Below are positions 4,212-62,991 of a stretch of 64,000 nt of DNA, piece after piece; the stretch's first letter is position 1; each line of letters starts with the position of its first letter. Below the pieces are notes generated by a model, which worked only from the letters and a program-made list of their open reading frames with translations, was not told where the DNA came from and did no database searches. Location of the stretch: NCBI GenBank assembly GCA_004123355.1, contig SCHM01000004.1:5173017-5237016 (forward strand), written 5' to 3'. The position numbers and the translations under genes were made by a program. The DNA comes from Amphirosellinia nigrospora (taxonomy: Eukaryota; Ascomycota; Sordariomycetes; Xylariales; Xylariaceae).

Positions 4212-5475
4212 TCAAGCCTCCTTCTCCGTCCCCTCTCTCCGCCCATCTGACGGAACCAGCTCTTCGATTATCGTACCCAGGTGCTTCACCATGCTGAAAT
4301 GAGTCTCTCCCTCGAGCTCGCGCAGCTCGCAGTGCGGTAGGTGCTCCGCCAGGTACCGCACCATGCGGATGGGCGACTGCCCGTCCTCGGCGCCGTGCCA
4401 GATGATGACCTTATCGTACCGCACCGACTCCAGCGGAAACCCCCACCCCTCCCATGTCAGGAGCTGGGCCTCCCGCACCATGGGCGCCGTACCTTGTGCG
4501 AAGGTCTCAAAGAGGGTGCGCAGCAGGGCGGCGCGGGAGTCCTGGATCGACGGTGTTGGGGTTGGGATCGCGGTTGGTGATGGGGCTGTCGTAGACGCGG
4601 CTGGCGATGTCGATGGTGCGCTGTCCTTGTTTCTACTCGACTCGAGCCATCGATCGATCCGCCGCGTGACGAAGTTGGTCGTCGTAAGCCAGCGACATAG
4701 CCCGACCACGCCGGCCGCGATGACCCTGAGCGAGGCTGGCCAGTAGTACGCCATGAATGCCGCTATCCTAGCCTATCAAGTCACGGTCAGTCAGAGGCGT
4801 CTTATGCGACTAGCGGGCCAATCTTCAGGACGGACGGACTACCTACCGAAGGCGGGACCCCCGCGACCCCGGCCTCCCACGGGGCCGCCGGCGCGAGGAG
4901 TCCCACGGCGGACAACGTCTCGGCAGGAAACGCGCGCGCGCAAGCCAGCGCGTACGGTGCGCCGCCCGAGCCGCCGAGGATCGCGAACCGGCCGAGCCCG
5001 AGATGCGCCGCCAGCGCGCGGACGTCTGCCGGCCAATCGGTGATGCGATAGCGCGGGTTGAACGTCGAGAGCCCGAAGCCGGGCCGCTCGGGCGCGATAA
5101 TGCGGAGGTCCTGCCTGTGGACCTCGAGGATTCCCTCGGCCTATTACGCGACTCGGGTTAGATGAGTGCTCGTCAAGTTCTGATCTGGTGTTTTCGTTTT
5201 GGGGCTCCCCCACGACTATCGAGACACGGGGTTTCTCTATATGGTGTGTGCGTGTGTATGTACCCTGGGAAAGAAGGAAATACTAAATTTCAAGACAAAC
5301 CTCGAGTCGTGAAGACGGAAACCCATGGAAGAAGAAGATCGGCTTCCCGTTGGCGAGCCGTACTCGCGAAGCCTAGTACACGACCATCCGGGAGTTCAAC
5401 GGTCTGGCTATTTCTTTTCGTCTTCGTGCCCTCTGTCGAGTATGCCTTGTCGCCGCTGATTCTGCGTCCTGGCAT
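4212..5475 (-). CDS. Alpha/beta-hydrolase fold protein
   Basis: Three exons on the minus strand: 5475-5301, 5140-4843 and 4762-4212, about 340 residues. Seen: ELPDGRVLGFA near the start, an oxyanion-type FFFHGFPSSRLE segment, RPGFGLS, the nucleophile elbow LGGSGGAPYA (G-x-S-x-G), an acid-region segment with IIWHGAEDGQSP, and the C-terminal ETHFSM carrying the catalytic His. That order is typical of the family. The substrate cannot be told. Exon 1 needs two single-base losses (near 5345 and 5365) to be read through, each beside a short G or C run, so they may be sequencing undercalls. A Ser/Thr/Pro/Ala-rich linker separates the two halves of the fold. The ATG at 5475 is the first in frame. Confidence 0.8.
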
Positions 5476-6436
5476 AGTGGTCAATAGGGCTGGCGTGATT
5501 GTGGGAGTCGAAGTCGTGGTTTTAAAGAACTTGTCTTATTCATCGTGGGCGGGATGTCGAGTTTAGGTATTATACAAGTGAAGTATAGGTACAGGTAACG
5601 AGCATAGATTACGCGAACGGGGCATCTCAGGAATATATAGCTCTTCCCCTAATTTGAAAACATAGCTCTGACTTATAACGCTTTGCCAACCATCTTACCG
5701 TGTATACTCTTATTATCCTCTATACTCAGTATCAGGTCGTTGTTGATGCTTGGCGGCCCACTCGCTATCTAAATGTGTAGCTATGATTGGCTGTCATATT
5801 GTGAATACGGCGTATTCAGGGACACTAGTTATAGGACGAATCAGCAGTCCTTATTCCTTAGGGACGTTCCCCTTCGCCTCATGATGCAAAATGACTTTTT
5901 GAGTAAAATTAGACTTGAGATTTTTTAGTGTGAATTGTGTTTCTATGGGGGACAAGGGGAGATAACCATAGTTTGTTCAATTAGGTGAGAGCGGCGGGCT
6001 TATTATTACCCTGTCAGATTATGCTGTGGAGTTCTACGAAACTACTTTTCTCCTCATCATGCCGGCGGTAACCATTACCTGCGAGGGAAACAATATAATG
6101 CGTTCTTCTTTTTCAACATTCCATCCTCGTTGTTATCTCCCTTACGAAGGACCAATATCTAAAACCCGTGTCGTTCGGGCTCAACTACCTCATAACGCCC
6201 ATACCTTAAACAAGACTGTGTGTGAGGCGATCCGCCTCTTTAATCTTTCATCTAAGCCATGGTAACGTCGAGCTTAGATGAATTTGGTAAACAAACTCAA
6301 TGTTAGTGTTTCAATGCCCATCTCATCCATCTCCATCCCATGTTATTTTGACACGCAGTTGCGCTTGGGGCTTATTCGTTGCGTATCATCATAGACATGT
6401 CTGACACCTACTTCCGCAGGTACTGGCGGCGACCTA
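5476..6436. other. Intergenic region, no gene seen
   Basis: Lies between the 3' end of the repressor-like gene and the 5' end of the hydrolase, both on the minus strand. It presumably contains the hydrolase promoter. No coding frame or structured element was recognised. Confidence 0.6.
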
Positions 6437-8919
6437 TCATGATAATCTCTGTGGCTGGAATGGAGCACATTGTCGAGTCCACGTCTCATCGCAAACCCTC
6501 CTCATCAACCTTCGTGGTGCATTACGGCCTGTGAAGAGCTCGAAAACTTCCATAGCCATCTCAGACACAACCTCCAAGCCGTCGATGAGCACCCACGACG
6601 TGTTGCCGTCTTCGCGCATCTTTCGTATCTGGACGATCAGAGGGGTGATAAGAGGTTCATATGCCAACTGATCTGATTAGCCTGGTACCATTTGAAGGCC
6701 ATGTTGGGTGAGTGCTTACCTCTATAACTACACCACCAGTGGGGCTCCGCAGCCACTGAGTTGGCATCCTGAAATCCACGGCAGGTTCGTCGTCGATGCC
6801 GAAGGAAGGGATACATGATAGGATGATGGTAGGTTGTTGATACCCTTCGGGCCAAGGATCTTTGGCCGATTCGATGACGTGACAGATCCGCTCCTCTTCC
6901 CCTCGCCGCCCTATAAGCTTGTGCTCCTTTGCGTACGCATCAAAGTGTGCCGCAACCTCTTCCGCCTTGGCTATGGTGCGGTTGAATATAAATATTTTGC
7001 GGCATCCCAGTTTGATCAGCGCGTATACGGCGGCGCGTGCCATGCCACCGGCACCAATGATCAGTCCAGTGGTCCACGAGGGTTGGATTGAGTTCCGGGG
7101 GCTGATGGCCCGACGAAGACATGTGGCTATAGAGCTCCAGTCGGTGTTATCGCCGTAAAACTTGTCTGTTATGCCGGATTTGTTTCGTGCATTAGCGTGA
7201 TCGAGAATCGAAGAAGTACTACCACGAAGAGGGATAAGGGTATTCACTGCGCCGATAGCAGTGGCGTGGAAGCTGAGGTGGTCAACGTGATCTGTTACGG
7301 CTACCTTGAAGGGCGGGGTGAGTGAAGCACCGCCAAAGTTGGGATCCCGTCGAAGTCGATCTAATTCTTCCATTGTGGTGCACCGCTTTGCTTCGAAAGC
7401 GTGTGGCATCATGTAGTGTTCAAAGGCTGCTCTATGCATAGAGGGCGAGGCCGAGTAATAGATGTTGGCGCCCACAGCGTAGAAATTGAGCGGCTGCAGC
7501 CATCCTCTTCGGAAGAATGTCCGTATCGTCCCACGGGTTGTGCTGACGCCAACCATCTGCTCTCGGCTGGACTTCTCCAACAATTCGTGGCCAGTTGGAT
7601 TCAAACTTAGGCCTTGAAATGGACTGACTATTCCAAATACAGAGTAATCCGAAAGCGACAATATTAGGTTTGGGTTCGGGCAGAGCCGCTATTCTGTCCA
7701 TCAAACTCTGTCGCCGTTCATCGTCTCTGTTCCCTGCACAAAACCTTGCAATCCGGACAATATGACACCCTAGCTTTTGAGCACGCAGATAGCGCTGAAA
7801 ATAAATTTCATCATCCCACTGTGGGGCGCCGAAGCCTTTGATCACGTAGTTGCCAATGATCTTGGTCCGGCCGCGCGCGGAGAGGACTTTGCGAATAAGA
7901 TCCTCACTTCTCTCAAGATCAAGGCTGAGATAATCGACACCGAGGCGAAGGCCATGCAGCATCAGTTCAAGATCTGTAGCATCCCTATCTTCTAGCTCCC
8001 TTCGGGGTTCTTCCCGCGGATTTTCCTCGACGTTATATACTATTGGTAGGTCAAGTTTCCGTCTTATGAGGGCAATCTGTGTGGCTATGAAATCAAACAT
8101 ATTATTCGGCACGTGTCAATGATCAGCTCTACCATTTCGGCAGGAGCCTCCAATTTTGCCAAAGTCTATTTCCGGTTTGCTTAGGGTCGAGAGCCGTATA
8201 TTCATGATGAATGTGTACAGTCGATGTTCTGGCGGAATTGCCTTGATAGAAAAGGGGTTCTGTACCCAAGACCGTGTAACAGCCTGCCCGGAGATGTGAT
8301 CGAGGAAGTTGATGAATTCCTGCTTGGCGTGGATTAATCTAGCGGAATGGGCAGACGCAGACCGCAATGGTGACTCCCCATCAGCCTGACCATTTGGGCT
8401 GGTGTCCAGAAGATTAAAGTATTCAAAGTTACATAACTCTCGATGTTTCTGGTCTGTCATCAATAAACGTTCCGCTTCAGAGACGGGGAGCCCGAGTAGC
8501 TTGTATAGGTCTTCCTTGTCTCGGTGAACATAGATGACTGGATTCGTCTCGGCATATGCCGATAACACAGCTTGCGTCTCTTGTGCCAGGGTTGCGGAAC
8601 TGCATTCGATGACACAGTTGAGGCGATTAGCATCTAGGGTCTGCGCTAGTACAACGGCTATCTGGCTATTGAACGTGTCGCGCCCATATTTTTGAAGGAA
8701 GGTTGTCCTGTTGCACCCGGTAGAGTTCTCGAAATAGTAGTCCTCTGTAAGGAGTCTGCGGCCTAGATACTTGGCGGCGATGAAGCCCAGCGTCCTCTTT
8801 CCCGCACCACGACATCCGACCAGCACGACAGAAGCATCTGATGGGAAAAGCCGGAGATTCGCCTTAATTGGCGTGGTTAAGGTCTCCGTTTCGGCCGCGC
8901 CATATTGGGCGTCTCTCAT
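6437..8919 (-). CDS. qutR: Quinate-repressor-like protein (inactive shikimate kinase + dehydroquinase + shikimate dehydrogenase domains)
   Basis: The product, about 811 residues, has the three C-terminal domains of the AROM polypeptide in order, which is the hallmark of the QUTR/qa-1S repressors. The kinase-like domain keeps a P-loop (LVGCRGAGKRT) but lacks the usual acidic DxD. The type I dehydroquinase domain reads GNYVIKG where active enzymes have the YHD histidine, and HIVRIAR where they have the Schiff-base lysine. The shikimate dehydrogenase domain keeps SASPSMH, NTDW and GAGGMARA. Exon 1 is 8919-6720 and exon 2 is 6667-6437, ending with a typical SDH C-terminus. The frame is interrupted near 8150-8110 and near 7655; these shifts are ambiguous (+1 or -2). 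Known relatives repress quinate use by binding the activator. The gene is divergent from the Zn2Cys6 factor at 10088. Confidence 0.82.
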
Positions 8920-10087
8920 TGCGACTCGTATGCCGTCTAGACGATCTCCGAACAGTAACCTGTGCTTTCTCTCGGGACCGTTGGTTTTCTTCTTCCCGAC
9001 TCAAGGTGTCTTCAGGTGGACGATGGTGAGTTTGAATCCCACCCGAGCAGGTCTACCCAAGACAATAAATAGTCGGCGACGAGGATGCACGGCGTGTTAG
9101 TAGGATGCTTGTCATACGATAGAGGACAGTCTAATATCCCGTCACCCACCCGCCCCAACGGGACGACCACACAAGCTTCGGTGATTCTAATGTGGCCGAT
9201 GAGTGTGTTGCGATGCGTATTAGTAAAGCTTCCCTCAATCGCTCCCTAATCTCATCGAAGGCTGAGTGCTACGGTCTCACTTCGATATGCCCTTCCCAAG
9301 TTGATCATTATCCTGGCAGGCAAGGCAAAGGGATGACACGACATGCGTGAAGCCCTATGAATTACATAAACCTCGACGGCGGTAGTCAAGTCCGGCAAGA
9401 TAGACAAGAGGATGGAGGTGCTGGACTGGACAGTGGGTCGAGTGGCCCTGGACGGCAAGCTTGTCGCAGGCCGGGTGGAAACATTGGCCGTACAGAGACC
9501 GCACATAGCGTCCGCTTCGTCAGGGTTGGATTGTTCTAAACTAAAAAGGGAAACTGATCGACCGTATCAGCCACAAGCAGCCGCCAAGTCTGGCAGCGTA
9601 GTCCGAGGTCTGGTTGAGCCACGTCTCTCACCACCATTGCGTGCATATTCGTTAACGCGGACTTGAGACTTGGCTGCCGAGCCATGTAGCAGCTTCAAGT
9701 ACCCGATCTATTTTTGATACCAATGACCAATGCATGAACGTCTCTAAACCCTTTCGAAGCACAACAGCGAGGCATATTTGACCCTGTCTACCGACTAGGT
9801 AGTAGGTAGTAGCATTGCCAAGTCCTAATCTTACTAAGCCGCATATAACATCTCATGGGAATATTATTGCCCATCACACACACCTAGTATATGAAAGCCT
9901 CCGCGCCATCGTTGCTCTACCCACTCGTAAAACACGGCAACGGATCCTACAGGCCACATTTATCGTGCCATCTCCCTCCCCCATAGACTAGCAGACTTGG
10001 CCGCCTGTCCCCATTCCACGTCAAACGGTACCCGGAACCCGGCGGCGGCAGCGTGGGTCACCGGTACCTCACCCTGCCGCGGAGGCT
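8920..10087. other. Divergent promoter region between the repressor-like gene and the Zn2Cys6 factor
   Basis: The two genes point away from each other, so this 1.17 kb should hold both promoters. Short frames inside it do not look coding. I did not find a clear repeated operator. Confidence 0.5.
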
Positions 10088-11483: not shown

Positions 11484-12137
11484 GTCTATTAGCCTTTATT
11501 CCTCCTACCTTGCTACTTACGTGGCAGTAGAACCCTGAGGTATGAGGTGCGTGGAGCCTCCTGGCCGACGTCCCCGTGTTGCTTTGCGGCGCGAGTCAGT
11601 GCCCGTGGGTACACTGTGGGGAGTGCAACACCTCGCACGGCGAATCCAACTGTCATTTTTCGCCTCTTAGGTGTTTGGAATCACGCGATGGTAGTCCGCA
11701 CTGCTCGTATAGAGCACACCTAATTGTACATATGTCGCGATATTGAACGATCCTCGATAGCTGAACTCTCGGCGGCTCATCGGGTCTATATAGCTTACTG
11801 ATATAAAATGAATACAGATACCCTTTTTGTTTGGCTTGATAAGTAGTGTGTCTATCTGACATCCGATGACTAGGAAGTACTTTAACGGCGCAAGTGGTGA
11901 GGTGGGGGATTTTGATTGCTAGCGACAGGCAGCACTCAAAGTACCTAGTTAAATCAAGCTGAGTTCCTTAAGAAATCTAGACGGGTAAAACGATATACGA
12001 AAGGACGAACGACGTGCTGAAGAATGAGAATAGTTCGATAATAGGCTAAGACTAGATGTATCTATCCAAGGACAAGTTCGACTCCTAACCGTTTATGTAG
12101 AGCCGGTTCCGTTCGCCAAACATTGCATCACACACAT
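11484..12137. other. Intergenic region between convergent genes
   Basis: 3' flanks of the Zn2Cys6 gene and of the dioxygenase gene. No coding frame recognised. Confidence 0.55.
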
Positions 12138-13538: not shown

Positions 13539-15197
<1,659 letters not shown>

Positions 15198-15607: not shown

Positions 15608-17246
15608 TTAATGCGCTTTTGTTTCGGTAGCGGCGTCGGCTGCATGAGCGATCTTCTCGGTGAGGTTCTCGGCAGAATCCTTGGCGTCGGTGATGACCAG
15701 GCCGGCTACAGCATCGGCCGTAGATTCAGCGGTTGTAGCCTCCGCTTTGGGCGCTATCCCCGTAGCAGCATCTTCAGTCTTTTCGGCGGCAGCCCCTTCT
15801 TTCACATCGCTCGCCACCGCAGTTTCGGCCGATGTGTTAGAAGAGGCGAACGCCTTTGGGATGGTACACACTCGCGTGTGTCTCTCCTGACCGTCCTTGC
15901 TACCGACCGCAACACACTCTAGTCGCGTCCCATCGTCTATAGGTTGCCAATAGCATGGCCCAGGTGGGAAGTTGGTAAATCCGTTCTCCATGTCACTATC
16001 CGCTTAATCTCGTCGTCGTAGGCAGGCTCGTCGAAAAAGTTCCACTCGAGTTTGCCTCCGTAATTTTTCGGGATATCGTCAAGGTCCATAAAGGTGGTCA
16101 GGACGGGGAGTACATCTTGGTCGCTGAGGATGAAGATCTTCGACACGGTGACGGGGTCAAACCACCGCTTGATCCAACCCCAGACGGTCGAGAAGAAGTA
16201 TGGCGCACCGATAATGAAAATTCCTAAGATCGGTTCAAGTTAGCACATTCCGTCTAGCTGTCCCTCCATGTTTATTGTAGTTATTGATGCGACACAGGGC
16301 GCGATTGGGGGTGCTCACGATCCAGAGTCTCGGGGTAATGGGCGGTGGCGAGCTGACTCGCAGCCTGCATGTGCGCCTTCAGGTTCCAGAACATGCGCAG
16401 ACTGACGTTCGAGATGTCGACGATGTTTGTGCTTAGGGTGATTGGTGTATGGGGATTCTCGCGATCGGTGCATTGGGACGACAGAGGTTGGGCAAACCTG
16501 GTCAGGTTCTCGTACAGCGCAAACAGACGCAGAAGCTTAGGTGGCGTCTTCCCGTCCGTCTTGGCCTTGCTATAGGTGGTCTCGGTGGACTTCTCGTAGT
16601 CGGCGACGGCTTTCGAGTCGAGATGTCGGATCTGAAAGACGTAGATGGGAATACCACTGCACCGCCAAAGCAAGCCGTCAGCATTCGTTCGGTCCCGCAA
16701 GATTAATACTCTGACACGGTAGAGTACGTAGTGATACATACCGCTTGTCTCGCCGTCCGGTGAAGCGCGGGTACTACACGGCAAAAGCATTGTGAGCTAC
16801 ACATGCCTCCAAGGTTGGGGTTATGGGTCTGGTGTACCAATTTCCGCGAGGACTCGTACGAGTCGATGTCGATGGTGTCGTAGAGCTTCTCGATCTCATT
16901 GGCGTTCCGGAACTTCTCCGTCTCGGCGAACTGCACGTAGGCGTCCTGTGGCACCCATTTTCTGGCGCGCAGATATCGGCTGGTGGACGCGCGACGGGTC
17001 AGGGTCAGCAAGAACGGTTCCCAGGGCCATTGGTCAGCGGGGAGACACCGTCGGGACGCACAGTAACGTGGGATCGTCATGGGACGGCGGGGGTCCCGGC
17101 TTGTAGAGACCCTTCTCTTCTATGAGAGTCTTGAACTCTGCTAGCGCCTGTGTTTCGTGTTCGGTGAGATGCCCGAGATGTCCCGTTGGATAGCCGACCT
17201 CGACGGCGCCTGACGAGGGAACCCGGCGTAGAGAATCGCTGGCCAT
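15608..17246 (-). CDS. CRAL-TRIO (Sec14-type) lipid-binding/transfer protein
   Basis: Five exons: 17246-17062, 16979-16838, 16773-16742 (only 32 bp), 16656-16319 and 16223-15608; all phases agree. Residues about 25-110 form the CRAL-TRIO N-terminal helix region (RYLRARKWVPQDAYVQF). The Sec14 lipid-binding domain follows (GIPIYVFQIRHLDSK, LYENLTRFAQPL, HMQAASQLATAHYPETL, MDLDDIPKNYGGKLEW). The tail is Ala/Glu/Thr-rich and probably disordered. The family exchanges phosphatidylinositol and other lipids between membranes. A single G is missing near 15988 (ACATGGAGAACG), which makes the ORF appear to end early. Past it the family sequence WENGFTNFPPGPCYWQP continues to a stop at 15608. Confidence 0.88.
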
Positions 17247-18710: not shown

Positions 18711-20780
18711 ATGGCAGAACATATTCCCTCGAGCGAGCGACATGTTCCTGGGTCTATAAACATCCCAATTTCGCCGTGGCCAACAACAGCAAACATTGAT
18801 GAAAACGCCACCGATGCCATTGCGATATCCTCTCAAATCATTAATTCTTTCAATAAGTCGTTGGAGAAGAAAGATTATAACGCCACCGCAGACCTCTTCG
18901 TGGATAACGGGTACTGGCGAGACCAGCTCGGCGTCACTTGGGACCTTCGGACGGCCAAGGGCAAAGACAAGATCGTGAAGTTACTCCAAGGGGGCCATCA
19001 CCTGGTCAGCGTTCAAATAGATCGCTCATCTCCCGGCAACAACCCCCAGGTTGCAGATCTGAGATACGATGGCTCTGTTCGCGGCATCCAGCTCCTCACA
19101 ACCATTACCACCCAGTTCGGTTCTGGTGGGGGTGTCGCACGCCTCATAGAAGAATCCGGCCAATGGAAGATATGGACTTTCCACACCTCGATGGAAAAAC
19201 TCAAGGATCACGAGGAAGCTGTAGGGCCCAATCGCCCAGTGGTGTGCAACACGGCGCACGAGCTGGCAGGAAGAATGTGAGTTATCCCGATTTTACTATT
19301 TTATTGTAAAGAAGAGGCGGCGGTCTTTAATCATCCCTTCAAGAATACCTACTAATTCCCATCATCATAGTGGGTGGAGAGGAGACAGGCTGAGTCCAAT
19401 TTCGAAGATTCAGAACCCGACGTCCTCGTTGTTGGTAAGATTTACCCCTGAGATGCTATGCACCTTTTCTAATACAGTCTAGGTTCTGGTCAAGCTGGTC
19501 TATCGGTTGCCGCCCGATTAAAGATGTTGAATGTGTCAACACTTACTATCGATCGAGCCGATGATATCGGTGACGCCTGGCGTAATCGGTACCATCAACT
19601 TGTTTTACATGATCCGATCTGGTACGACCATAGTGAGTAGTAGGCTATTGGTTCAGATGGATTTACTGCTAAATTGTATTAAAGTGCCATACCTCAAATT
19701 TCCTGATTTCTGGCCTATATTTACGCCCAAAGACAAGATGGCCGACTTTTTGAAAACCTACGCCCATATGCTGGAGTTAAACGTGTGGACCAAGACTGAG
19801 CTGGAGTCTAGTGTATGGGACGACGGGAAGAAGCAATGGACTGTAGTCCTAAAGCGTAAACACGCCGACGGCAGCATAGAGACGAGGACTCTCCACCCGA
19901 AACACATCATTCAATCAACAGGCCACTCGGGAAAAAGAATTACCCCCAATTAGGGATGGAGAACTTCAAAGGAGATGTTTTCTGCCACTCCTCAGACTTC
20001 CGTGGGGCGAGAAAGGACACCAACGGCCGGAGGGCGGTCGTCATCGGCTCATGCAATTCGGCCCTCGATATCGCGCAAGATTATTACGAGAACGGGTACG
20101 ACGTTACGATAATCCAACGGTCTTCCACGACAGTCTTCAGCAGCAAGGGTGTCCTAGAACTACTATTGGGAGCCCTATACAGCGAAGGAGGCCCGTCTAC
20201 CGAACTCGGGGATTTGTTATCTTGGTCTATACCCCAGGAAGTTAATAAAGCTATCCACGCAGACATAAACACGCTGCAGCAAGACTTCGACAAGGAAATC
20301 CTCGAGGGCTTGAATAAAGCCGGATTTAAGACGGACCGGGGCCCGATGAACTCCGGCATGTTTTTCAAGTATCTACAGCGCGGGGGCGGGTACTACATCG
20401 ACGTCGGTACATCCCAGCTCATTATAGACGGCAAAGTGAAGGTCAAGCACGGTTATGGCGTGGACGAGATCCTACCGAGCGGCTTGCGGCTTGAAGACGG
20501 CACCGAGCTGCAAGCTGATGAGATCGTCTGCGCCACGGGCTATCAAAATATGAGGACGATGACTGAGATGATCTTCGGCCCGGACGTAGGAAGCAAGATC
20601 GGTAATGTCTGGGGCTTCGACGAGGAGGGCGAGACGAGAATTATGTGGCGTCGGAGTGGCCATCCCGGACTTTGGCTTCACGGCGGAAATCTGGCTATGT
20701 GTCGGTATTTTTCCAGGATCGTGGCTCTGCAGATCAAGGCCCAATTAGAGGCTGGCGTCTTGAGTATACAGATGGCCTAG
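18711..20780 (+). CDS. Flavin-binding monooxygenase with N-terminal NTF2/SnoaL-like domain
   Basis: Four exons: 18711-19276, 19371-19434, 19483-19632 and 19685-20780, about 625 residues. Residues about 40-185 look like an NTF2/SnoaL-type fold (KSLEKKDYNATADLFVDNGYWRDQ). The FAD-binding Rossmann motif is VLVVGSGQAGLSVAARL. FKGDVFCHSSDF resembles the FxGxxxHxxx[WF] fingerprint of class B monooxygenases. The NADPH-site region reads VVIGSCNSALDIAQ, with Cys where Gly is usual. ATGYQNMR is the typical C-terminal motif. One base is missing at the exon 1/2 junction (near 19276) and one in the A run near 19935; otherwise the frame is continuous. The family oxygenates small nucleophiles or ketones. 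The substrate here is unknown. Confidence 0.87.
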
Positions 20781-31778: not shown

Positions 31779-32584
31779 TTACCATTTAGCCTCCTTGCGG
31801 TCCTGGAATCCCTTCAGGATGGCGACTATCTTCTCTAGCGATGTCAAGTAGGTTCGCAGTTCGGCGGCGACGGCATCTTGGTCAGCTCCTAGTTTGGGAT
31901 AGAAGTCCTTGCGGTAAGGGCAGGCACTCATAGCGGCCGAGAAGACGGGCTTGACCAGAATACCGTGGTGGGGCTTGAGAGTAGCACCGTACGCGCCGCG
32001 GAACGAATCCGCCAGCTCTTCGCTAGACTTGGCCAGATTCTGGCTCAGTGCAATACACGTGAAGTCCAAGCCTCTGTGAGACGAAAGTCAGCGTCTGGGG
32101 CATGATGTTTGAAACATGCTACACGGAGGGACGTACCGGACCAGCCACACGAGACCCTCGGTAGCCTTATGGGACTTGGCCTTGAGCTCATTCAAGACAA
32201 GGGCTTGGAGAGTTTCGGACTCGGCGGGGCAGCGAGCTGGCGATCACGGATTTTCTTGTTTTTGGTTAGACTTGCCAACACTGGGTTTCATTTGGCGTGG
32301 ATATGGGGCACACCTTGACATTTCCCAACATGTCGGACTTCACAGGCGAGAAGGCAATGGATCCAAGGGCATCTGGGAACATCGTGGGTTAGAGACAAAA
32401 TGATCATATTTTTGCTGTTTCCCCCAGGGAGCTTACCAAACATGGTAGTCAACGACTCAGCTGCGTCGAGAAACTCGGTGGTTGAGATGGCATTGTCATT
32501 CTCGGCGTCGACAGGAACATCGACAAAGGAACGCTTGAAGGTCGAGAGGAGGGTGGCTCCCTGGGGTACTTCGGGGGCGGACAT
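31779..32584 (-). CDS. het-C2: Glycolipid transfer protein (HET-C2 family)
   Basis: Four exons: 32584-32437, 32372-32314, 32254-32137 and 32073-31779, about 206 residues, the usual length. Family landmarks: TFKRSFVDVPVD, ALGSIAFSPVKSDMLGNV, the central ATEGLVWLVRGLDF segment with the sphingolipid-headgroup-binding Trp, and FSAAMSACPYRKDF. It is very close to the Podospora HET-C protein, known for a role in heterokaryon incompatibility and ascospore formation. The protein moves glycosphingolipids between membranes in the cytosol. One G is missing near 32232 (GCCCCGCCGAG), shifting the frame inside exon 3; the sequence on both sides is well conserved. Confidence 0.92.
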
Positions 32585-33719: not shown

Positions 33720-36661
33720 ATGTCCGGGTCCCACGCCAACGATGGAGATCACACCAAATTGGTAGACAAGCTGAAGCACCCCTTCCACGAATTAAAGGAT
33801 AAGCTAAGAGACACGCACCTACACGACGCCAAGGTCCACTTGAATCATAAAAAGTATGTTGATTGATTCATCCTCACAGTCCACTGCAGCTAACTCCATG
33901 CGTCAGGCATCAAATTGGTAAATTCAAAAACCTCGTACGTCCTCGGTCTCGGTGATGATGCACCCTGCCTGTGCTAGCCTCTCGCTTTACTGACACGTCT
34001 ATCCTACTTACCCACAGGTGAATCCTCAACATCGCCATGACGAAGAGCATGAGATTGTTTGTGATGAGAAGCGCAGCGGCATCGCCGACGAGCATCGTTT
34101 CAAGTCCTACTTTCCTGAGCATGACGGCAACCTAATTAAGTGGTACGTCGACGGGAGAGATTATTTCTGGGTGCGTATGACCGTCCCAGTTCTCCCTGGA
34201 CATGAAATAAGAGCAAAAGGACAACACTAACTCCTCCATCAAAGGCCGTATCAGTAGCTCTAGAGCAGGCCAAAGAGACCATTTACATTGCCGATTGGTG
34301 GTTGTCCCCCGAGTTGTTTCTGAGGCGACCCCCTCACACTAATCAGGAATGGCGATTGGACGCCGTCTTGAAACGTCGCGCCGAGGCGGGTGTGAAGATC
34401 TTCATCATCGTTTATCGCGAAGTCGAGGCCGCCCTGACTTGCAACTCGGAGCATACAAAACATGCCCTCCAGAGCCTCTGTCCCAAAGGCTCCCCAGGGT
34501 ACGGTAATATTAAAGTTATGCGTCATCCCGACCACAACGTCCTAGAGAATGCTGCCGACATGACCTTTTATTGGGCTCATCATGAGAAATTCATCGTCAT
34601 CGACTACGAGATGGCCTTCATTGGCGGCCTAGATCTTTGCTTTGGTCGTTGGGATAGTCACCAACACGCCCTTTCGGATGTTCATCCTGAAGGTGTTGCC
34701 AACGAAGTGTGGCCCGGCCAGGATTTCAATAATAATCGCATTATGGACTTCAAAAACGTTCAAGATTGGAAGCAAAACGAACTAAGCAAGGCCGAGTATG
34801 GCCGAATGCCGTGGCACGATGTAGCCATGGGGGTTATCGGACCGTGTGTGTACGATATTGCCGAGCATTTCGTCCTTCGCTGGAATTTTGTGAAGCGCGA
34901 CAAGTATAAGCGTGACGACAGGTTTGACTGGATTATGCTTCAAGGCCGCCAAGGAGAAGACGAAGATTTAGTTGGTGTACAGAGACCCAAACAGTATGAC
35001 AGCCTCAGCTTTATTTCCTGTTCCCCGTTATCTCTTCTCTCGAAACCGTCTTGAGTACCGATTTATTTCGAGTGCCATCTTACTAACTCGTGCTTTCGCG
35101 TAGTCCTGTTGGAGACTATGTCCTGCACCCTTTGACTCCCCTCGAAACTAAACAGCTCAATAAACGGGGGACGGTCCACGCACAGATCGTCCGGTCTAGT
35201 GCTGATTGGTCTAGTGGTATTTTGAGGGACCATAGCATTCAAAATGCGTACTCGGAGGTGATCCGGAACGCTCAGCACTATGTTTACATCGAAAACCAGT
35301 TCTTCATCACAGCCACGGGCGATCAGCAATCGCCTGTTCACAATCAAATTGGCAAGTCCATTGTGGAAGCGTGTGTTAGAGCTGGGAAGGAAGGCCGGAA
35401 GTTCCGGGTCATCATCGTCATCCCCGCCGTACCCGGATTTGCTGGCGACTTACGGGATGACGCAGCTGTGGGAACGCGCGCCATCATGGACTACCAGTAC
35501 AAATCAATCTGCCGTGGCGAGCACTCTATTTTCGAGCAGATTCGAGCTCAGGGTGTTGATCCGACAGAGCACATCTTCGTCTTCAACTTACGATCCTACG
35601 ACCGCCTCAACAAAACACCGGCAATTCGGAAACAGGAAGAGAGATCCGGTGTGGAATACCACGAGGTGCAACGCGCGCAAGCTGAGGAGATTATGGCTCT
35701 GGTATTCACGGCAGCGCAGATGTCGAGGGCGAGCGCGACAAGCATATGGGCAAGGCTGAGGAGCAGAAGGAGTCGAAGGAGACAACAAAGAGTGCGGAAG
35801 CTAAACAACGCTTTGAAGAGGCGAAGCAAAGCGGCGAAGAGACAGTATCAACATTTACTGTGGCGCACCACGCTATGGCCGGGACGGGCAAACTCTCGGA
35901 TGAGCCATGGGAAGGCGAACCTCAGGAAGAGGTTCATAACTGGATACAAGAAGAGCTATACATTCATGCCAAGATTCTCATCGTGGACGATCGCGTTGTG
36001 ATTTGTGGATCAAGCAATTTGAACGACCGCAGCCAGGAAGGTCATCACGATAGCGAGCTCTCCATTGTCATGGAAGACACGGAGAAAATTCAGAGCAGAA
36101 TGGACGGTCAGCCGTTCGAGGCCGGCAAGCACGCAGCTACCTTGCGGCGCTACCTATGGCGGGAACACTTGGGTTTGCTCCCGCCACAGGATCTCGATGC
36201 GAGTAACGACCCTAACGCACAGCCTCCGGGCGAAGACTCACCAAACGACATCTGGGATCGAGACGACAGCTACACGTTTGTGGAAGATCCCATGAGCGAT
36301 GCGCTATGGGAACAGTGGACTACTAACGCTACTACGAATACGGAGACGTTCAGGCATCTGTTTCACGCAGACCCCGATGACTACGGTAAGTGCCTGGATA
36401 ACGAAGGATCATTGGAGCTGGAGTATCAGAGCTAACGAATGTGTAGTCAAAACCTTTGATGACTACGACACCTTCCTACCACCAAAAGGTGTCCAGGCTG
36501 GCCACATATTTGATAGATTCCTGCCAGCCAATGACATCCGCGAGAAGCTGGATCAAGTCAAGGGTCACCTTGTCTGGATGCCGTTGGACTATTTGAAAGA
36601 TGCCAACATGGCTGAAACAGGACTGCAGGTGAACGCCTGGACCGAAAGTGTTTATACATGA
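33720..36661 (+). CDS. Phospholipase D, two HKD motifs, no PX/PH domains
   Basis: Six exons: 33720-33853, 33907-33934 (28 bp), 34018-34170, 34245-34993, 35104-36385 and 36447-36661, about 853 residues; all phases agree. The first catalytic motif is HEKFIVID (about residue 217) followed by GGLDLCFGRWD. The second is HAKILIVDD (about residue 642) followed by ICGSSNLNDRS. Together they form the HxKx4D pair that hydrolyses phosphatidylcholine to phosphatidic acid. The N-terminus (KHPFHELKDKLRD) lacks the PX and PH domains of Spo14/PLD1. A Lys/Glu-rich insert of about 80 residues lies just before the second motif and could be a coiled coil. One base is lost near 35697 (ATGGCTCTGG), at the start of that insert. 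Confidence 0.93.
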
Positions 36662-37355: not shown

Positions 37356-38447
37356 ATGGGTTTCTCGTGGATCAGAGTCGCTCTCCTCCTCGGCGCAGCG
37401 ACGGCGGTGAGTATACCTGCGGAGGGAAGGGGCGCGTATGAAAGGGCGAAGACACCGGCCTTCTTCCTCGCGGGCGATTCTACGACGGCGGTCGATGGCG
37501 GTTGGGGAAACGGGTTCCTCGCTCCGCTCATCAAGCCGGCTTGGGGCCTCAATGTTGGCTTAAGCGGTGCCACGACGAAGTCTTTCGTGGCGAGCGGAAA
37601 TTGGGAAAATATCACTTCGCATCTGAAGGAGAACGCGGATGAATATGATTGTTATGTGACGATTAGTGTAAGTCTGTTGAAAGAGGGGTAAGGGAGAGGA
37701 GTGTGATATTCCGGAACTATGCGGCTAATCTGTGATATCGCAGTTCGGACACAATGATCAGAAGGAGGGCAGTGGTGTTACCTTTACGTACGAGTTCCAG
37801 AATTAAAATGTGCCTTTCTACTCCTGTGGAGACTTGGATAGTGATCACTCCAGTATTGCGGTTGGATTTATCGGCGGCGCAATGACTGGCTAACTCCAGA
37901 TATTGAACAGGGAATACCAGCAGAACTTGATCAACTTCGCGAACGAAGTCAAGTCGTTAGGCGGCACAGCAGTAAGTAGTATTCCGACGATCGTTTCCCG
38001 CGATACCACAACCCCGCATCTCCGAGGAACGAATGGAAGAAACACCTTAAAACAAGTCCGCACCCGAACTAACCAAGCCAAACCTCTCCCCAAAGCTCCT
38101 CGTCTCCTCCCTCACGCGGCGCGTCTTCCCCAGCGACCCCCACAACGCCACCGACTCCCTGCACGACCAGCGTCTCGCAACCATCGAGGCGGCGGAGGCC
38201 ACGGGGTCCCCCTCGTCGACCTGAACGCCGCGAGCCTGGCGTACGTCGACGCCATCGGCCGCGACGCGTCGTGGGCGTACAACTGGGGCGACGACCAGAA
38301 GGACATGACGCACCTCAACCCCTGGGCGAGGTCGTCTTCGGCCGCATGGTGGCAGACCTGGTCATCCGCGCGAAGCCCGAGTTGGGACGCTGGATCACGC
38401 CTAATGAGACGTTGAGCGATGCTATTTGGAACGGCCAGCCGGCTTGA
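37356..38447 (+). CDS. Rhamnogalacturonan acetylesterase-like SGNH hydrolase (CE12)
   Basis: Four exons: 37356-37667, 37744-37787 (44 bp), 37911-37971 and 38096-38447, 256 residues after allowing for two lost bases. The start MGFSWIRVALLLGAATAVS is a signal peptide. SGNH blocks are in order: GDSTTAVDGGWG (Ser nucleophile), GLSGATTKSF (Gly), ISFGHNDQKEG (Asn), and DMTHLNPWGE (Asp-x-x-His). This layout matches the rhamnogalacturonan acetylesterases that remove acetyl groups from pectin. The losses are in G runs near 38201 and 38327. The ATG at 37356 is preferred because the signal peptide starts there. Confidence 0.9.
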
Positions 38448-38955
38448 TTGGGGGGGAGTGGCCTATATTGTGGTGAATTGTGACACGCCATGGGGTGGTG
38501 TTGAAATTGGGCCGAGGGCGAACACGTGAAGTTGTGCCCTGGGATTCCGCGAAAAGACCATCTTGAGAGAAAGCTATCAAATACGTTGTAGCAGCTAGAT
38601 TAACTATGTATCTGCTTTCCGGAGTAGTACATTTTAGTATCGCCAACTCTATGTTCTACGAGGTTGGCAACGTATGGAAGAGTTAATGACGTACAATGAT
38701 GCCATACAACAGTCCAGGCGAGTCACAACTTGTGGAAGGCGCAAAGAAATGCAATATGTGTGGTAGAAGTGTTGAATGTCAAGATGAGCTCTCTAGCATA
38801 AATATGCAACTCATGACCGTTTTGGGGGGGGGGGGGGGGGTCTAAACTATACCACACCATATCCCATGTGTGATCCCTCAATCTCGCAATTCTCTAACTC
38901 CGAGTCTCTTTCCGCTTTTGAACGACCGCTTTTAGACTATTTCACATTTCACAGG
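38448..38955. other. Gap between convergent genes with a 17-base G run
   Basis: 3' flanks of the CE12 and PDX1 genes. Apart from the poly-G at 38824-38840 nothing is recognised. Confidence 0.6.
38824..38840. repeat. Poly-G tract, 17 bases
   Basis: Uninterrupted G17 about 115 bp downstream of the PDX1 stop codon, on the opposite strand to PDX1. It could form a G-quadruplex-type structure; transcribed from PDX1 it would read as C17. Confidence 0.9.
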
Positions 38956-40004
38956 CTACCAGCCTCGCCCGGCCAGCTTCTGCTCGGCCGGCAAAGACCG
39001 CACGCTGATACCGACCATGGCCTCGCCCAAGCCCTCACTACACTCGGCCACGACCTTGGCGTCCCGGAAGTGCGTCGTGGCCCGAACGATGGCCTTGGCC
39101 CTCTGCGCGGCATCTCCCGATTTGAAGATGCCACTGCCCACGAACACACCATCGCACCCCAGCTGCATCATGAGCGCGGCGTCGGCGGGCGTAGCCACGC
39201 CACCGGCAGCGAAGTTCACGACGGGCAGCCGCCCGAGCTCGGCCGTCTGCTTCAGTAGGGTGGCGTCGCAACCAAATTCCCGCGCCAGCTGTCGAATGGC
39301 GAGGTCGCCCCCATCGCGCAGCGCGGCCTGTGCGGCGGCGATATCCTTCTTCACGGTACGGATGTGTCGCACCGCTTCCACCACGTCACCTGTCCCTGCC
39401 TCGCCTTTTGTGCGGATCATGGCGGCGCCTTCTGTGATTCGGCGGAGGGCTTCGGCCAGGTTGCGGCAGCCGCAGACGAAGGGCACGTTGACTGTGGCGC
39501 CAACGGCTCACATGTTAGTGGCATAGGACCTTTTCCATTTTTTCGGTATGAGTAGTTATTAGCAGATTATGAGATATACGTACACTCAGACTTCTCGACG
39601 TGGAATTCGTCGTCGGCAGGCGTGAGCACCTCGCTCTCGTCAATGTAGTCGACGCCCAGGGCCTCGAGGATCTGGCACTCGACGAAGTGGCCGATGCGGG
39701 CCTTGGCCATGACGGGGATGGTGACGGCGGCCTGGATCTCCTTGATCTTGGCCGGGTCCGACATGCGCGAGACGCCGCCCTCGGCGCGGATGTCCGCAGG
39801 GACCCTCTCGAGGGCCATGACGGCGCAGGCGCCCGCGTCCTCGGCGATGCGGGCCTGCGCGGCGTCGGTGACATCCATGATGACGCCACCCTTCAGCATC
39901 TGCGCCAGGCCTGCCTTGACGGTGAAGGAGGCCGTGGGTTTGCTGGTCGTGGCCGTCGTGGTCGTGGTGGCGGCCGCACCCGTGTTGGTTGTGTCGTTCG
40001 TCAT
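38956..40004 (-). CDS. PDX1: Pyridoxal 5'-phosphate synthase lyase subunit PDX1 (SNZ/PdxS)
   Basis: Two exons: 40004-39584 and 39491-38956, intron with GTACGT donor, 318 residues, the normal length, with no frame break. The TIM-barrel landmarks are all present: [64 protein letters not shown], and [19 protein letters not shown] with the phosphate-binding FVGSGIF. The lysines that carry the ribose-phosphate intermediates are retained ([15 protein letters not shown]). The enzyme builds pyridoxal phosphate from ribose 5-phosphate, glyceraldehyde 3-phosphate and ammonia supplied by PDX2. A Thr/Ala-rich N-terminal stretch precedes the fold. The gene is divergent from PDX2. Confidence 0.97.
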
Positions 40005-41699: not shown

Positions 41700-41731
41700 A
41701 CAGTGTGTATGTAATTAGCTACATCCTTGTC

Positions 41732-47980: not shown

Positions 47981-48028
47981 ATGGATGGATGGATGGATGG
48001 GTGGGTGGTCGATGGTCGATGGTCGATG
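47981..48028. repeat. (ATGG)n and (GGTCGAT)n microsatellite
   Basis: Five ATGG units followed within a few bases by three GGTCGAT units, non-coding. Confidence 0.8.
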
Positions 48029-51390: not shown

Positions 51391-51408
51391 CCCCCCCCCC
51401 CCCCCCCC
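51391..51408. repeat. Poly-C tract, 18 bases
   Basis: C18 followed by further C runs broken by single T bases; non-coding. Confidence 0.9.
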
Positions 51409-57289: not shown

Positions 57290-58099
57290 ATTCTTCCTTT
57301 CATTGTCGTACTGGAAAAATCACTCATCGCCACAAGGGCTGACTATCGCAACATTAGTCTTTTCTTTGCCATAAGGCTTCTTCATAGCTTCCTCTCAGAT
57401 TCTTCAGCGAACTCGAATACGTAGCGCCGTGTTGATGTTCCCAAGTGTACGATTCCGTCCCCGGCAATGTGCGCGATCGGCTCATTACGCAACTGATCGC
57501 TCTACTACTTAAATGTAGTAGGGGGCTGTGGTTCCTACGTCATGCATCGTGAGGACTGGGAGACCGGCTTGACAGGTGGCTGCAAGGGACTCATGGCGTA
57601 TTGAACGGCGGGTAGGGAGAATTGGGAAAAGGGATAGAGGTATTCCAATCGCTTTGGTTCCGAGATGCAAGATACCAATGAAAATACAACAAGTTGGCAA
57701 AAGAGAGGCTCCCCAAGAACGATTCGCCGTTCGGCTAACACGGTTACCCCGCGGACCCAGCTACCACCCCTGGATGCATCATGCATTAGGTACCTACCTA
57801 CTCGGGCATCCTACGTACAGCTGCACATTGAGCTGGACATTGGGCGGCGGCAATGTGCATGAAACCTTTTGTGTGTTTTTTTGCCTTCGCGTACTTAGCC
57901 CCCCAAAATCCATTCGTATCTTCTCATAATTTCATAATCGTAGACCGCCATCTGTGTTGAAGCGCGTTTGTTCAGGTATCTTACATCGACTAACTCAAGC
58001 CACCATATCCGGCTCGGCTCGCTGCTTGCTTCTCTATAGCACTCATACCTCACCACTCACTCTACACCACCTGCCCCCGTCGTGCAGATATAGATCAAT
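57290..58099. other. Intergenic region, no gene seen
   Basis: 810 bp with the 3' flank of the Zn2Cys6 gene and the promoter of the next plus-strand gene; a TAGGTACCTACCTA motif lies at 57787-57800. Confidence 0.55.
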
Positions 58100-59275
58100 A
58101 TGGAGTACCAGGCGCCGACGCCATCTTTCCAGCCGACTGCTACGGCAGCACCGCCGGAGACTGCGCCGCCGCCCTTCCGGCAGCAGCAGTCACAGCAACA
58201 GCAACAAATCGATCAGCAGCCCATAGTAGCCTCACCCTTTGTCGGCACTGACCTGCGCACCATCAAATCCGCCTGCGAGATCTCGCTCCGCGAGTACGCC
58301 AGCCTGCAACACAGGGCGGCGGGCCCGGACGCGACCGGCTGCGTGCCCAGGGCGCACTCGCCGCGAGTGATCTCCGCGTCCTCCGCTCCGAGGTCGCGGC
58401 GCTGTTAAAGAAGGCCGAGGCTTCCAGGTGGCGGAAGTGGTTGCTCGGGGGTATCGTGTGAGTACTCATCATCGTTCCTTTCTTCCTTTCTTTCTTTTAG
58501 TGTTGATTGTGCCTATGCTTTCTGCGATTTCCTTTGCCCCTCTATTTCCTTTAGCAGCGTGCAACTTCGTTGCGCTGCTTCGTCTGTTCTACTTCTCCAT
58601 GGCCATCTTGGCTCTGTCCTCTCCTAGCACACGGCTTGGTGATAGGCGGGGATACTGTTGAACGAGGACAGGCGTGTATTAACCGCATTCAAGTGCGGCC
58701 CTCATCCCCGCCGTGCGCAAGATCTTCCGCAGATCACATGACGACAAAGCGTCCTCGAATGACACGGAGTACGCCTTCCGGAAGAGCAAGTCCCTCATCG
58801 CTCGCATCTTAGATTCCGTACGCGTTCACGGCAAGTCTGGCCTGGCATCTGTGGCATTCTTTGTGCTGGCTGTGCTTTACGTGTTTCAGAGCGAGGTGTC
58901 GCTACGTGTTGCTAGGACGGTCTCAAAGAGGTTGAAGAGGCTCGTCACCAAGGTGGAGAATGGTGTCGAGGATGTGGACCAACAGGATTTGAAGGTGCTG
59001 AACGGGTGGCGGTGGAGGGTGTTGCTTTGGTAGGGTGTTGCCAGTATTGGACGTTCCAGTAGCTCTGTTGTCTCTTGAGCATTTCAGTTCCACCGGGCTT
59101 TGGGACATTCATCTCTTACGTGGTGGATATGGCGTCGCTGGTGGACAAGCTGGACATTCTAGCACGGTTTCTCTCTCCAGATTCTCACGAGGGTATAGGT
59201 AGGGAGGTAGATCAAGATGAACCAGACAGGACAGGACAAAGGGGCAGAACTTGGGAATTCGAGATAGTTTTATGA
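58100..59275 (+). CDS. Conserved-looking protein of unknown function with one likely membrane helix
   Basis: Three exons: 58100-58457, 58694-59029 and 59080-59275, 296 residues with consistent phases. The N-terminal 50 residues are Pro/Gln-rich (a short poly-Gln stretch). A helical, Arg-rich segment follows (ACEISLREYASLQ, then LRVLRSEVAALLKKAEASRW). The next part has a charged stretch and one hydrophobic segment, GLASVAFFVLAVLYVF, probably a membrane anchor. Exon 3 adds PPGFGTFISYVVDMASLVDK and a polar tail. A lost base near 58320 shifts the frame inside exon 1. The last intron is inferred from an in-frame join to strongly coding-like sequence; without it the protein stops at 59033. I do not recognise the family. 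Confidence 0.65.
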
Positions 59276-59621
59276 TCGAGACTTTATAAGACATGATTGA
59301 GCTACAGGTAACAAGAGTCCTTGCCACTTTACGCTGGGCGTCTGCCTACGTGAGCCTAGGTTATTATCAAGTTAGTTCAAGTAGCGCCAGGCTTGTCGAG
59401 AGATGTCCCCCAAAGATGATCAATATCTTGTTGCTATCTGATCGAGGAATAGTATGCGCTGTTTACGCTCCATGCCGGGGTGTTTGAGGTATAGATTAAA
59501 ACGAAAGGAGAAACTCGCAAGGCATCGTTGAGTTATCCGTTTTCCTTCCTTTTCTGGTTCCGAACCGGGTATATACGCCACACAAAGCCGATAATATACA
59601 CGCCACCGAATGCTTGCTAGA
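59276..59621. other. Short gap between convergent genes
   Basis: 346 bp; 3' flanks of the preceding gene and of NUP49. Nothing else recognised. Confidence 0.6.
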
Positions 59622-61050
59622 TTAATATACACCATTGGTATTGTGGTCGTTGCTCATAAAGTCACCCAACTGGAGTCGAGTCATGCCTTCTCTAGCACTC
59701 CCGACGTCACCCGCCACCTTAAGGATGCCCTGCTCAAAGTCCCTCAGCACAGCGACCAGCTCTTGAATCTTCTCATCTGTCCCGGACGAGGCGGTGTTTT
59801 TCGTGGCCATCATTCGTTGAAGGTGCTCGACCAGGTTATCCGAGACTCCATGCATATGGAGTTCGATCTCTGTTAGGTTCCTCTCATACCGTTTCGTCTG
59901 TTTCTCTCATCAGCCGTCTTGGAGAAGAAACCCACAAGATCTTGGCCGTCAGTCTCGGCGTTCGCATTCCCGGATGCTTGCTGCCTGGGTGACCAGAAGC
60001 CAGGGGTATGGTACTGCTGTGGGAGCTTAAGGTTATCTATGGCGCGGAAGCTCAAGCGAGCATTGTCGGCATCTTGATTAACCAAGGCGCGGGCTGCTTC
60101 GATGGACTCCGCAGCAGATTCCAGGGCGTTTCGAGCACCATCGTATTTTCTGCTAATGAATGTGACGTCGTCGGGGATACTCTGGAGCATTTCACGGTGG
60201 CCAGACATGAACGAATCGACCTCTTGTTTCCTCCGGACTTGCTCGGCGATGAAATTATCGGCTTGTTCGACAATTTTCTGTAGGTCTTCTTGTAGGTCAT
60301 TGAACCGGGTGGTGCCCTTGAGGTTGGTGACGTCGATGCGTACACCTGGGACAGTGGGTTGGGCATTCGGCTGGCCCATGGTCAAGCCGAAGCCGAGCCC
60401 ACCGCCTAAGCCTATGGCAGGTTGTTGCTGTTGGGATTGACCGAGCGAGCTAGGTTGGGCTTGGGCTTGTTGACCGAGACCACCACTATGGAGACAAACC
60501 GTCAATTAGCACCTACATGGATCAAGGGATGGATGAGGAAGTCGCAAACTCACAACAAGCCGAGCCGCGGTTGGGCAGTCTGACCTAGTAAACTGGCCCC
60601 TGTCGCATTGTTGGCGGGTTGTGAGGGGTTCAAGAGACTACCGCCAAACACACTTGAACCACCTGTCGAACCTGTGTTTGCCTGGCCGGCTGTGGCATTT
60701 CCGAACAATGCTCCGGCGGTCTGGGTCTGGGTCTGGGGTTGGTTCTGAGTAGCAGTCCCAAAAAGGCCACCGGTCTGCTGCTGCTGGGGTTGCGCTGAGG
60801 CTGTAGAGGTGAACAAACTAGGCGTCTGCTGGGATTGGGGCTGGGATGCGGCGGCCGTCGGGGTAGCGCCAAACAATGAGCTGCCCTGCTGAGGCTGCGG
60901 TGTAGTGGAAGCGCCACCAAACAAACCGCCGGGCTTTGGGGTGGAAGTGTTCGCGGTCGAACCGAATAGACCGCCCGACGCAGGCGCCTGACTAGCGGTT
61001 GAGCCACTATTGTCGTCGTCAGTCTCGTCAACAAGTCTCTTGAGCGGCAT
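59622..61050 (-). CDS. NUP49: Nucleoporin NUP49 (Nup58 homologue), GLFG type
   Basis: Two exons: 61050-60554 and 60485-59622, 453 residues after allowing for one lost base. The first 190 residues are FG repeats (GGLFGSTANT, GGLFGGASTT, SSLFGATPTA, GGLFGTATQN, GALFGNATAG), rich in Gln, Ser and Thr. They form the permeability barrier of the nuclear pore. The second half is a coiled-coil domain (TRFNDLQEDLQKIVEQADNF) as needed for the Nsp1-Nup57-Nup49 complex. One G is lost near 59905 (GATGAGAGAAAC), after which KRYERNLTEIELHMHGVSDN continues to the stop. The ATG at 61050 begins MPLKRLVDETDDD. It is divergent from FIP1. Confidence 0.92.
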
Positions 61051-61808
61051 GTTGGCAGCACGGGAGCGGTGTCGGCAGAGCAGTAACAAGGAGGAAAGTG
61101 TAGGTAGGGGAAAGACGGAGAGCGGGCGCAAGAAACAAGGTTAGGGCGGGTTGGGGGAGCACAAGCAGATGGAGATGGACGTACAACATGTTGGCAGAGG
61201 ACGTGTTGATGCTCAAAGCTCCGGGACCACTTGCTGATCGAAAAAGGGCCATAGGAAGGCAAGCCGAGGCGAGGCGAGGCGAGGCGAGGCGAGGCAAGGG
61301 AGCAAATGAGCAAGGGAGAGGGCGAATGGATACCGACAGCTCGGGACGGCTGTGCGACTGGCTGGTTGCAGGTGAGATGAGGTGAGCAATCAACCAGCAA
61401 CAAACGAACGAGCGAACGAACAAGTGAACGAACGGAGAGAGAGACGATATGATATTAACGTGGATGATAAAAGATAAAAAGTACCTAACCATCGATAATG
61501 GTCCAGTCGGGTCGACTACCTAGTGAAGTACCTTAGGCGCGCTATTGGCAGGGTGATTGGTGATTGGTGATTGTCGATTAATGTTATGTACTGGGGTGGG
61601 GTACCTAAGCTACAGCACCTAAGATACCTCACTAGGTACGTGGATACATGCATGTAAGTGGGTTCAAGTCCGCTAAGCTACAGGGACATCATATGCCCCA
61701 CATATAGCTCTCTCCAGCTAGAATAGACTGGATGACAACAGCAACATCGCACTCCAGCTCTGTCGCACCCCGAATAGCATAACACACCATATCTAAATTG
61801 CCGTCACC
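61051..61808. promoter_or_regulatory. Divergent promoter region between NUP49 and FIP1
   Basis: 758 bp between start codons. Contains (GAGGC)6 at 61266-61295, a GAAC-rich tract near 61400-61440 and TAGGTA/TACCTA motifs near 61480-61640. No coding frame beyond shadow frames of NUP49. Confidence 0.5.
61266..61295. repeat. (GAGGC)6 minisatellite
   Basis: Six tandem GAGGC units, about 215 bp upstream of the NUP49 start codon. Confidence 0.85.
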
Positions 61809-62991
61809 ATGGAGATCGACGACGACGACTTCTACGCTCCTGAAGAGCCCACCACACAGTCTGTAGAGAGTGCGACCGCGACCACGACCGCGTCCGCGCC
61901 CGCTGCTGCTAATACCAATGCCCACGCTACACCCACCGCGCCACAGCACGATGAAGATCTAGAGGAAGGGGAGGAGGAAGATGAGGGGGCTGAGATGGAG
62001 GATTCTGACTCGGTGCGGCTGTCATGAATTGCCATCCATCTTCCCGCTCACTGGCGCTGACATCAACGCCTCAGGATATCGATATTATTACCGAGCGCAA
62101 GGACGGCACCAAAGCCGGTCCGCCAACGTGAGAACCCCTACCCTTACCCCTACAGCAGATGTGAGTCGCTCACATGAATCCATCTATCCAGTCAATCGCG
62201 CTATAGCGACATCAGGAACATTCCCCAGCGTTCCACGTCGACAGACACCTCGACAAAGCCACCCGTCAAGAAAGATGAATCTGCCAAGGGCGCCTCGGCA
62301 GCCGAGCTCCCGCCCGTCTCAACCTCCACCATTGACGTCAACGCAATCCCTGTCTACAAGCCCACAGGGAAGCCTATCACGCAGGTGAACATCGATCAAG
62401 GTTCGCTTCCCATCGCCACTCTAGCTACCCGAGTTCGTACACGGCTGATCGCTGACCGCTGCCACCAGATCTTCCCGAGAACGACAAACCCTGGAGAAAC
62501 CCAGGTACCGACCTTAGCGACTACTTCAACTATGGGTTCGATGAGTTCACGTGGGCCCTATATGCTGCCAAACAGGAAAACGTCCGAGGAGAATACAGCC
62601 AGGATGCCATTGCTCAGAATAATAAGAAGATGATGGAAGAAATGCAGATGATGATGATGGGAGGTATGCCTGCTATGGGAGCCGCCGGCGCTGCTGGCTC
62701 TATGGCCGCTATGCCCGGCATGGATGGGATGCCCCGGAATTCCAAGCCATGATGCAGCAGATGATGGCCTCGGGCATGGATCCCAGTCAGATGGACCCTT
62801 CTGCCATGACGGCCATGTTCTCCGGCGTGCAGAACACCGGGGGCGGGGCCGCTGGGCAAGGCTCCCAGAACCAGAACTTCGGTGGTGGTGGAACCGGTAA
62901 CCAAGGCCAGAATTTTGGTTATGACCAAGGTATGGGGCGTGGTGGTGGCGGTTTCGGTGGACGTGGACGTGGTGGCAGAAGGAACTGGTGA
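61809..62991 (+). CDS. FIP1: FIP1, pre-mRNA polyadenylation factor
   Basis: Four exons: 61809-62012, 62075-62127, 62192-62400 and 62469-62991, 329 residues after allowing for one lost base. The N-terminus is acidic ([13 protein letters not shown], then [20 protein letters not shown]), as in yeast Fip1, where it contacts poly(A) polymerase. The diagnostic FIP1 motif is [20 protein letters not shown] followed by [11 protein letters not shown], which binds CPSF30/Yth1. The C-terminus is Met-rich ([13 protein letters not shown]) and then Gly-rich with RGG-type repeats ([14 protein letters not shown]), likely RNA-binding. One C is missing in the run near 62735 (GATGCCCCGG), which otherwise causes an early stop. 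It acts in the cleavage and polyadenylation complex in the nucleus. Confidence 0.93.

Follow-up and report, generated by a model that had tools for sequence, protein, structure and literature searches.

The closest described cases come from long-read sequencing. In nanopore-only assemblies of the fungus Drechmeria coniospora, insertions and deletions (indels) at homopolymers make up most of the errors and break the reading frames of conserved genes, and polishing placed long A/T runs that lack read support (PMC7500977). The bacterial MinION assemblies of the Kastor report contain deletions at homopolymers of 2–8 bases, with a peak after 4–5, that break gene frames (PMC12007338). Deletions are the main error of raw nanopore reads and become dominant as homopolymers lengthen (PMC8486125), systematic homopolymer indels lead to frame shifts and persist after read-based polishing in the Homopolish cases, yeast included (PMC8011154), and assemblies of filamentous ascomycetes have more homopolymer indels at low coverage (PMC9453082). 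We describe here single-base losses in genes of a 64 kb stretch of the Amphirosellinia nigrospora assembly (C6:5173017-5237016; the window, in whose positions all site coordinates are given) and across the whole assembly (48,114,038 bases, 11 contigs). Like the Drechmeria genome, this is a fungal assembly in which mostly homopolymer indels shift the frames of conserved genes (PMC7500977), and it shares homopolymer-tied deletions that break gene frames with the Kastor assemblies (PMC12007338) and frame-shifting homopolymer indels with the Homopolish cases (PMC8011154). We are close to certain that these losses are errors in the consensus sequence of an assembly of long reads, with one base too few at runs of identical bases.

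For three losses in the window, homologous matches flank the break on either side. Family searches were made with stop-to-stop pieces; long read-through frames were insensitive in Pfam. Pfam matches in the window include the fungal families Zn_clus, Fungal_trans, AA9, and Nup49_C, while a tRNA scan and an Rfam scan of the 64 kb gave no match. The three breaks, with gene limits from a codon model, are:

14697..14712, + strand: frame break in an Acid_PPase/HAD phosphatase gene (14445-15197), confirmed loss
19926..19947, + strand: frame break in an FMO-like monooxygenase gene (18711-20780), confirmed loss
59897..59906, - strand: frame break in NUP49 (59622-61050), loss confirmed modulo 3

The phosphatase gene matches Acid_PPase profile positions 2–31 in one + strand frame (to 14712) and 27–168 in another (from 14697), and the shared profile position lies one base early in the second frame, so that the gene is one base short. 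Two overlapping open frames of the monooxygenase gene match PDB 8acs_A at 240–322 and 316–603 and place the shared residue 316 at 19927 and 19926, respectively, again one base short; the codon model also puts a loss at 19927. In NUP49, two - strand open frames match PDB 5cws_D at 2–140 and 141–225 with a four-base overlap, which confirms a one-base loss modulo 3 near 59900–59903 (the codon model places a loss at 59906 at its loosest penalty only). The breaks could in principle be unrecognised introns or misjudged exon ends, and changes between pieces are indeed intron-sized at four places in the window (Sec14, GLTP, DUF7907, and PDX1). At the phosphatase, monooxygenase, and NUP49 breaks, however, the frames overlap in both genome and protein, and there is thus no space for an intron.

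The same kind of break was sought throughout this one assembly by a six-frame search with nine Pfam families, in which pairs of adjacent matches were sorted by script. Among 83 junctions between neighbouring pieces, 42 were intron-sized, 23 had pieces that abut in both genome and profile, and 18 were loose, with pieces too far from contiguous for an offset to be read. Seventeen of the 23 abutting junctions lacked exactly one base, two lacked two bases, and one lacked four, and the other three were offset by +2, +5, and +38. No abutting junction showed an exact one-base gain (0/23; 17 versus 0, sign test p 1.5e-5). The exact losses fell in CCT (n = 5), HSP70 (n = 4), kinesin (n = 3), the actin family (n = 2), P450 (n = 2), and tubulin (n = 1). 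All first-look candidates were scored in six of the families, which form the basis of the break rate: 15 exact losses in 55,005 matched bases, or at least one per ~3.7 kb. The remaining families were scored in part, best first (P450, 92/327 first-look candidates; aldehyde dehydrogenase, 11/62; sugar transporters, 9/272), and were dropped from the comparison of rates between essential and other genes, while their junctions stay in the total of 83. The HSP70 junction that is four bases short (L037, C7:1399802-1400042) possibly lost a short-repeat unit; losses are thus not all of a single base.

Although 42 of the 83 junctions are intron-sized, which is what unrecognised introns would give, 22 of the 23 abutting junctions leave no space for one (the +38 junction is unclear), and introns would not prefer -1 over +1 nor appear in 5S ribosomal RNA (rRNA) genes, which have no reading frame. 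We regard introns or misjudged exon ends as a very unlikely account of the breaks. Gene decay, in which relaxed selection on the lineage would have turned the affected genes into pseudogenes, agrees with the frames, which are indeed broken in the assembled sequence. It predicts gains as well, whereas 17 exact one-base losses and no exact one-base gain were found, and it should have spared the CCT, HSP70, kinesin, tubulin, and actin-family genes, which are all hit. CCT, actin, and tubulin are essential in yeast and other fungi.

The context of the breaks was assessed at 14 abutting junctions (CCT, n = 6; HSP70, n = 6; actin family, n = 2) against random intervals of equal width in eight CCT loci. 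This set deliberately excludes P450 sites and also omits the +38 junction, which is unclear, and the kinesin and tubulin junctions, which were found later. The longest run touching a break had a mean length of 3.5, versus 2.70 for the random intervals (p 0.001). Runs of at least four bases were touched by 6/14 breaks (2.0 expected, p 0.011) and runs of at least five by 4/14 (0.56 expected, p 0.002). The link between runs and breaks is real and, at this resolution, incomplete. The initial annotation had stated that most losses in the window sit at runs of 1–5 bases, which is nearly empty as worded; what holds is that the 14 housekeeping breaks elsewhere lie at longer runs than chance would give.

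Dispersed 5S rRNA genes provided a non-coding counterpart. From 2127 first-look candidates, 47 were scored and gave 33 matches, all of which were aligned; two rearranged copies (L075, L076) were removed before counting and all counts rest on the other 31. These genes (L044-L076) comprise several sequence subfamilies, and the most divergent of the 31 differs from the consensus by 22 substitutions. Single-base losses numbered 21 in the 31 copies, and gains of a single base were absent; losses of more than one base occurred six times and a two-base insertion once. With opportunities taken from the consensus, from which divergent copies differ, single-base losses per run length of 1, 2, 3, 4, and 5 numbered 0/2077, 1/465, 4/93, 5/62, and 11/31. 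By site, 11 lay in a C5 run, four in a G4 run, one in an A4 run, and five in C/G runs of 2–3 bases. The bases concerned set this assembly apart from the Kastor assemblies, where A/T runs are worst and not C and G runs as in the 5S test (PMC12007338), and the run lengths set it apart from raw reads, in which lengths below five are mostly well estimated while runs of 3–5 are affected in the consensus here (PMC8486125).

The 5S copies bear on two further explanations. Some divergent copies could be pseudogenes, as gene decay would have it; yet among the 13 copies that depart from the consensus by no more than three substitutions, eight already carry single-base losses, nine in all, and none has an inserted base. 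Taken with the unspared conserved families and the absence of one-base gains, this makes decay of the genes exceedingly improbable. Translational recoding, in which the ribosome changes frame at runs as in programmed frameshifting, would account for the common direction of the breaks and for the many that lie at runs. The 5S genes are untranslated, so recoding cannot be the cause of the same losses there, and the 14 localised breaks have no common site; its probability appears negligible.

The losses are spread over contigs and are present in coding genes, including P450, as well as in 5S rRNA. The occurrence of one-base losses without one-base gains, their rise with run length, and their presence in coding, non-coding, and essential genes together point to consensus undercalling. 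We infer that sequencing or consensus building, rather than the organism, is their source, and that a nanopore-like platform was used with no polishing by accurate short reads. In the proposed mechanism, the base-calling or consensus step would drop one base at runs of identical bases, with a chance that climbs steeply with run length and, as the 5S test suggests, mainly at C and G runs. A run in an exon would then leave a broken frame, and a run in an RNA gene a gene one base short. The reading of the window losses as sequencing undercalls in the initial annotation is supported by the one-base losses at abutting junctions, the 5S run-length trend, and the CCT, HSP70, actin-family, kinesin, and tubulin genes that carry breaks.

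Homopolymer losses that grow with run length are also typical of mismatch-repair loss, and a mutator lineage, for example one without mismatch repair, would truly contract its runs. Against such a lineage, life-essential genes are affected, which would be lethal to a haploid fungus, runs as short as 3–5 bases are affected, and A/T runs are overall not short. We consider it extremely unlikely. The same very slight chance is given to a partly real shortening of runs, in a mutator culture or in mixed nuclei, many of which would carry true contractions, life-essential genes included, while other nuclei of the mycelium supply intact copies.

Several observations weigh against consensus undercalling. 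The 18 loose junctions are unskewed, with 8 versus 8 shifted frames and two in the same frame. The aldehyde dehydrogenase and sugar-transporter matches had no abutting break, in families scored in part and best first, which favours intact genes. At eight of the 14 localised breaks, no run in contact with the break exceeds three bases. Divergent 5S subfamilies account for five of the C5 losses, and inheritance is possible for part of the 5S variation. In the Drechmeria assemblies over-long runs are commoner after polishing, whereas one-base losses dominate here (PMC7500977), and the sign of the error is tool-dependent in the Homopolish cases, with Flye drafts dominated by insertions before Racon (PMC8011154). 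A/T runs of at least six bases are not short, with 119 seen versus 109 predicted in 245.8 kb. Outside the window the codon model leans only mildly towards losses (9:5), at its strictest penalty it gives 1:1 overall, and overlapping open frames are unskewed there (15:18, 7:8, and 4:3).

Three of the statistics tried were rejected as proof. The run-length spectrum is mixed: only C/G runs are short (at least six bases, 44 seen versus 66 predicted in the 245.8 kb), and a 50 kb Escherichia coli control had, for runs of at least six, 3 versus 3.0 predicted for C/G and 41 versus 56.5 for A/T. The codon model, which applies equal penalties to losses and gains and was run at a loosest, a middle, and a strictest penalty, gave losses to gains of 15:5 at the middle penalty (6:0 in the window, 9:5 outside) and 32:11 at the loosest. 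In spike-in trials its count rose by 9–11 for 35–57 deletions and by 9–11 for 47–54 insertions, so that it detects about one sixth to one third of errors. Overlapping open frames were rejected as a sign test (9:6, 6:2, and 4:0 in the window), with no skew outside the window and 12:7 in a low-scoring control. Among the loci sampled, L019, L021, L025, and L026 have a G+C content of 8–14%, against 44–55% in the others, and L026 contains 1978 N; these stretches may be centromeric or may have undergone repeat-induced point mutation.

Five further window sites are candidate losses on frame or codon evidence:

35599..35935, + strand: frame change of the loss kind in a phospholipase D gene (33720-36661 by codon model), likely loss
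15940, - strand: loss in a Sec14-like gene, codon model only
38320, + strand: loss in the gene at 37356-38447, codon model only
58301, + strand: loss in the gene at 58100-59033, codon model only
62727, + strand: loss downstream of the Fip1 motif in FIP1 (61809-62991), codon model only

In the phospholipase D gene, PLD1 matches stop at 35599 and restart at 35935 in the next frame; the change lies within ~335 bases that have no counterpart in human PLD1, and the codon model puts a loss at 35701. The pieces of the gene at 37356-38447 had no Pfam match. At the middle penalty the model reports losses in the window near 15940, 19927, 35701, 38320, 58301, and 62727 and no gain; at the loosest it reports one gain, near 17060.

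Four places that resemble breaks are intron-sized, and one frame change may run in the other direction:

16221..16311, - strand: gap of intron size in the Sec14-like (CRAL_TRIO) gene, not a break (weak match of the first piece, E 0.002)
32078..32133, - strand: intron-sized gap in the GLTP gene with flanks in the same frame, not a break (first piece weak, E 0.00046)
30139-30088: intron-sized gap in a DUF7907 gene, not a break
39489..39588, - strand: intron-sized gap in the PDX1 gene, not a break
7601..7741, - strand: frame shifted by +1 or -2 in an AROM/quinate-repressor-like gene (6437-8919), which may depart from the loss rule

The PDX1 (pyridoxal 5'-phosphate synthase) gene, at 38956-40004 on the - strand, consists of two exons and has no sign of a break. 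The AROM/quinate-repressor-like gene has shikimate kinase, dehydroquinase, and shikimate dehydrogenase matches; matches to AROM stop at 7741 and restart at 7601 in another frame, with 16 bases more than the alignment to 7tbv_A needs. An in-frame stop lies at 8116-8118 within its dehydroquinase match. Isolated very long runs occur in the window (T18 at 14147-14164, G17 at 38824-38840, and C18 at 51391-51408), where runs of 10–16 bases are absent and only one has 8–9 bases, and outside it a C48 run lies at L018 9607-9654. These isolated runs may be artefacts too, by comparison with the long A/T runs that polishing placed in Drechmeria (PMC7500977).

Set against these sites, the initial annotation, which had listed 18 or more single-base losses in window genes, stands in part. 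Homology establishes three (HAD, FMO-like monooxygenase, and NUP49), and five more have frame or codon evidence only. The count itself was not confirmed, and four nearby changes between pieces proved intron-sized. The window holds 24,534 coding bases by the codon model, for which the genome-wide lower-bound rate gives about seven expected breaks; 18 is thus rather high, yet possible. Sec14 and GLTP had been listed as broken, and the gaps found in them (16311-16221 and 32133-32078) are of intron size, though other places in these genes were possibly meant. The statement that no site is a single-base gain agrees with the 17 losses and no exact gain found genome-wide and is unproven for the window itself, given the +1 or -2 change in the AROM gene and the loosest-penalty gain near 17060.

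The phenomenon belongs to a familiar class of assembly artefacts and is an ordinary one, and as biology it is no real feature of the fungus. Gene prediction on this assembly will give truncated proteins or invented introns, and counts of pseudogenes, gene losses, or frameshifts taken from it are not trustworthy. The 5S test provides a cheap check, made without reads, for any assembly with dispersed copies of an RNA gene.

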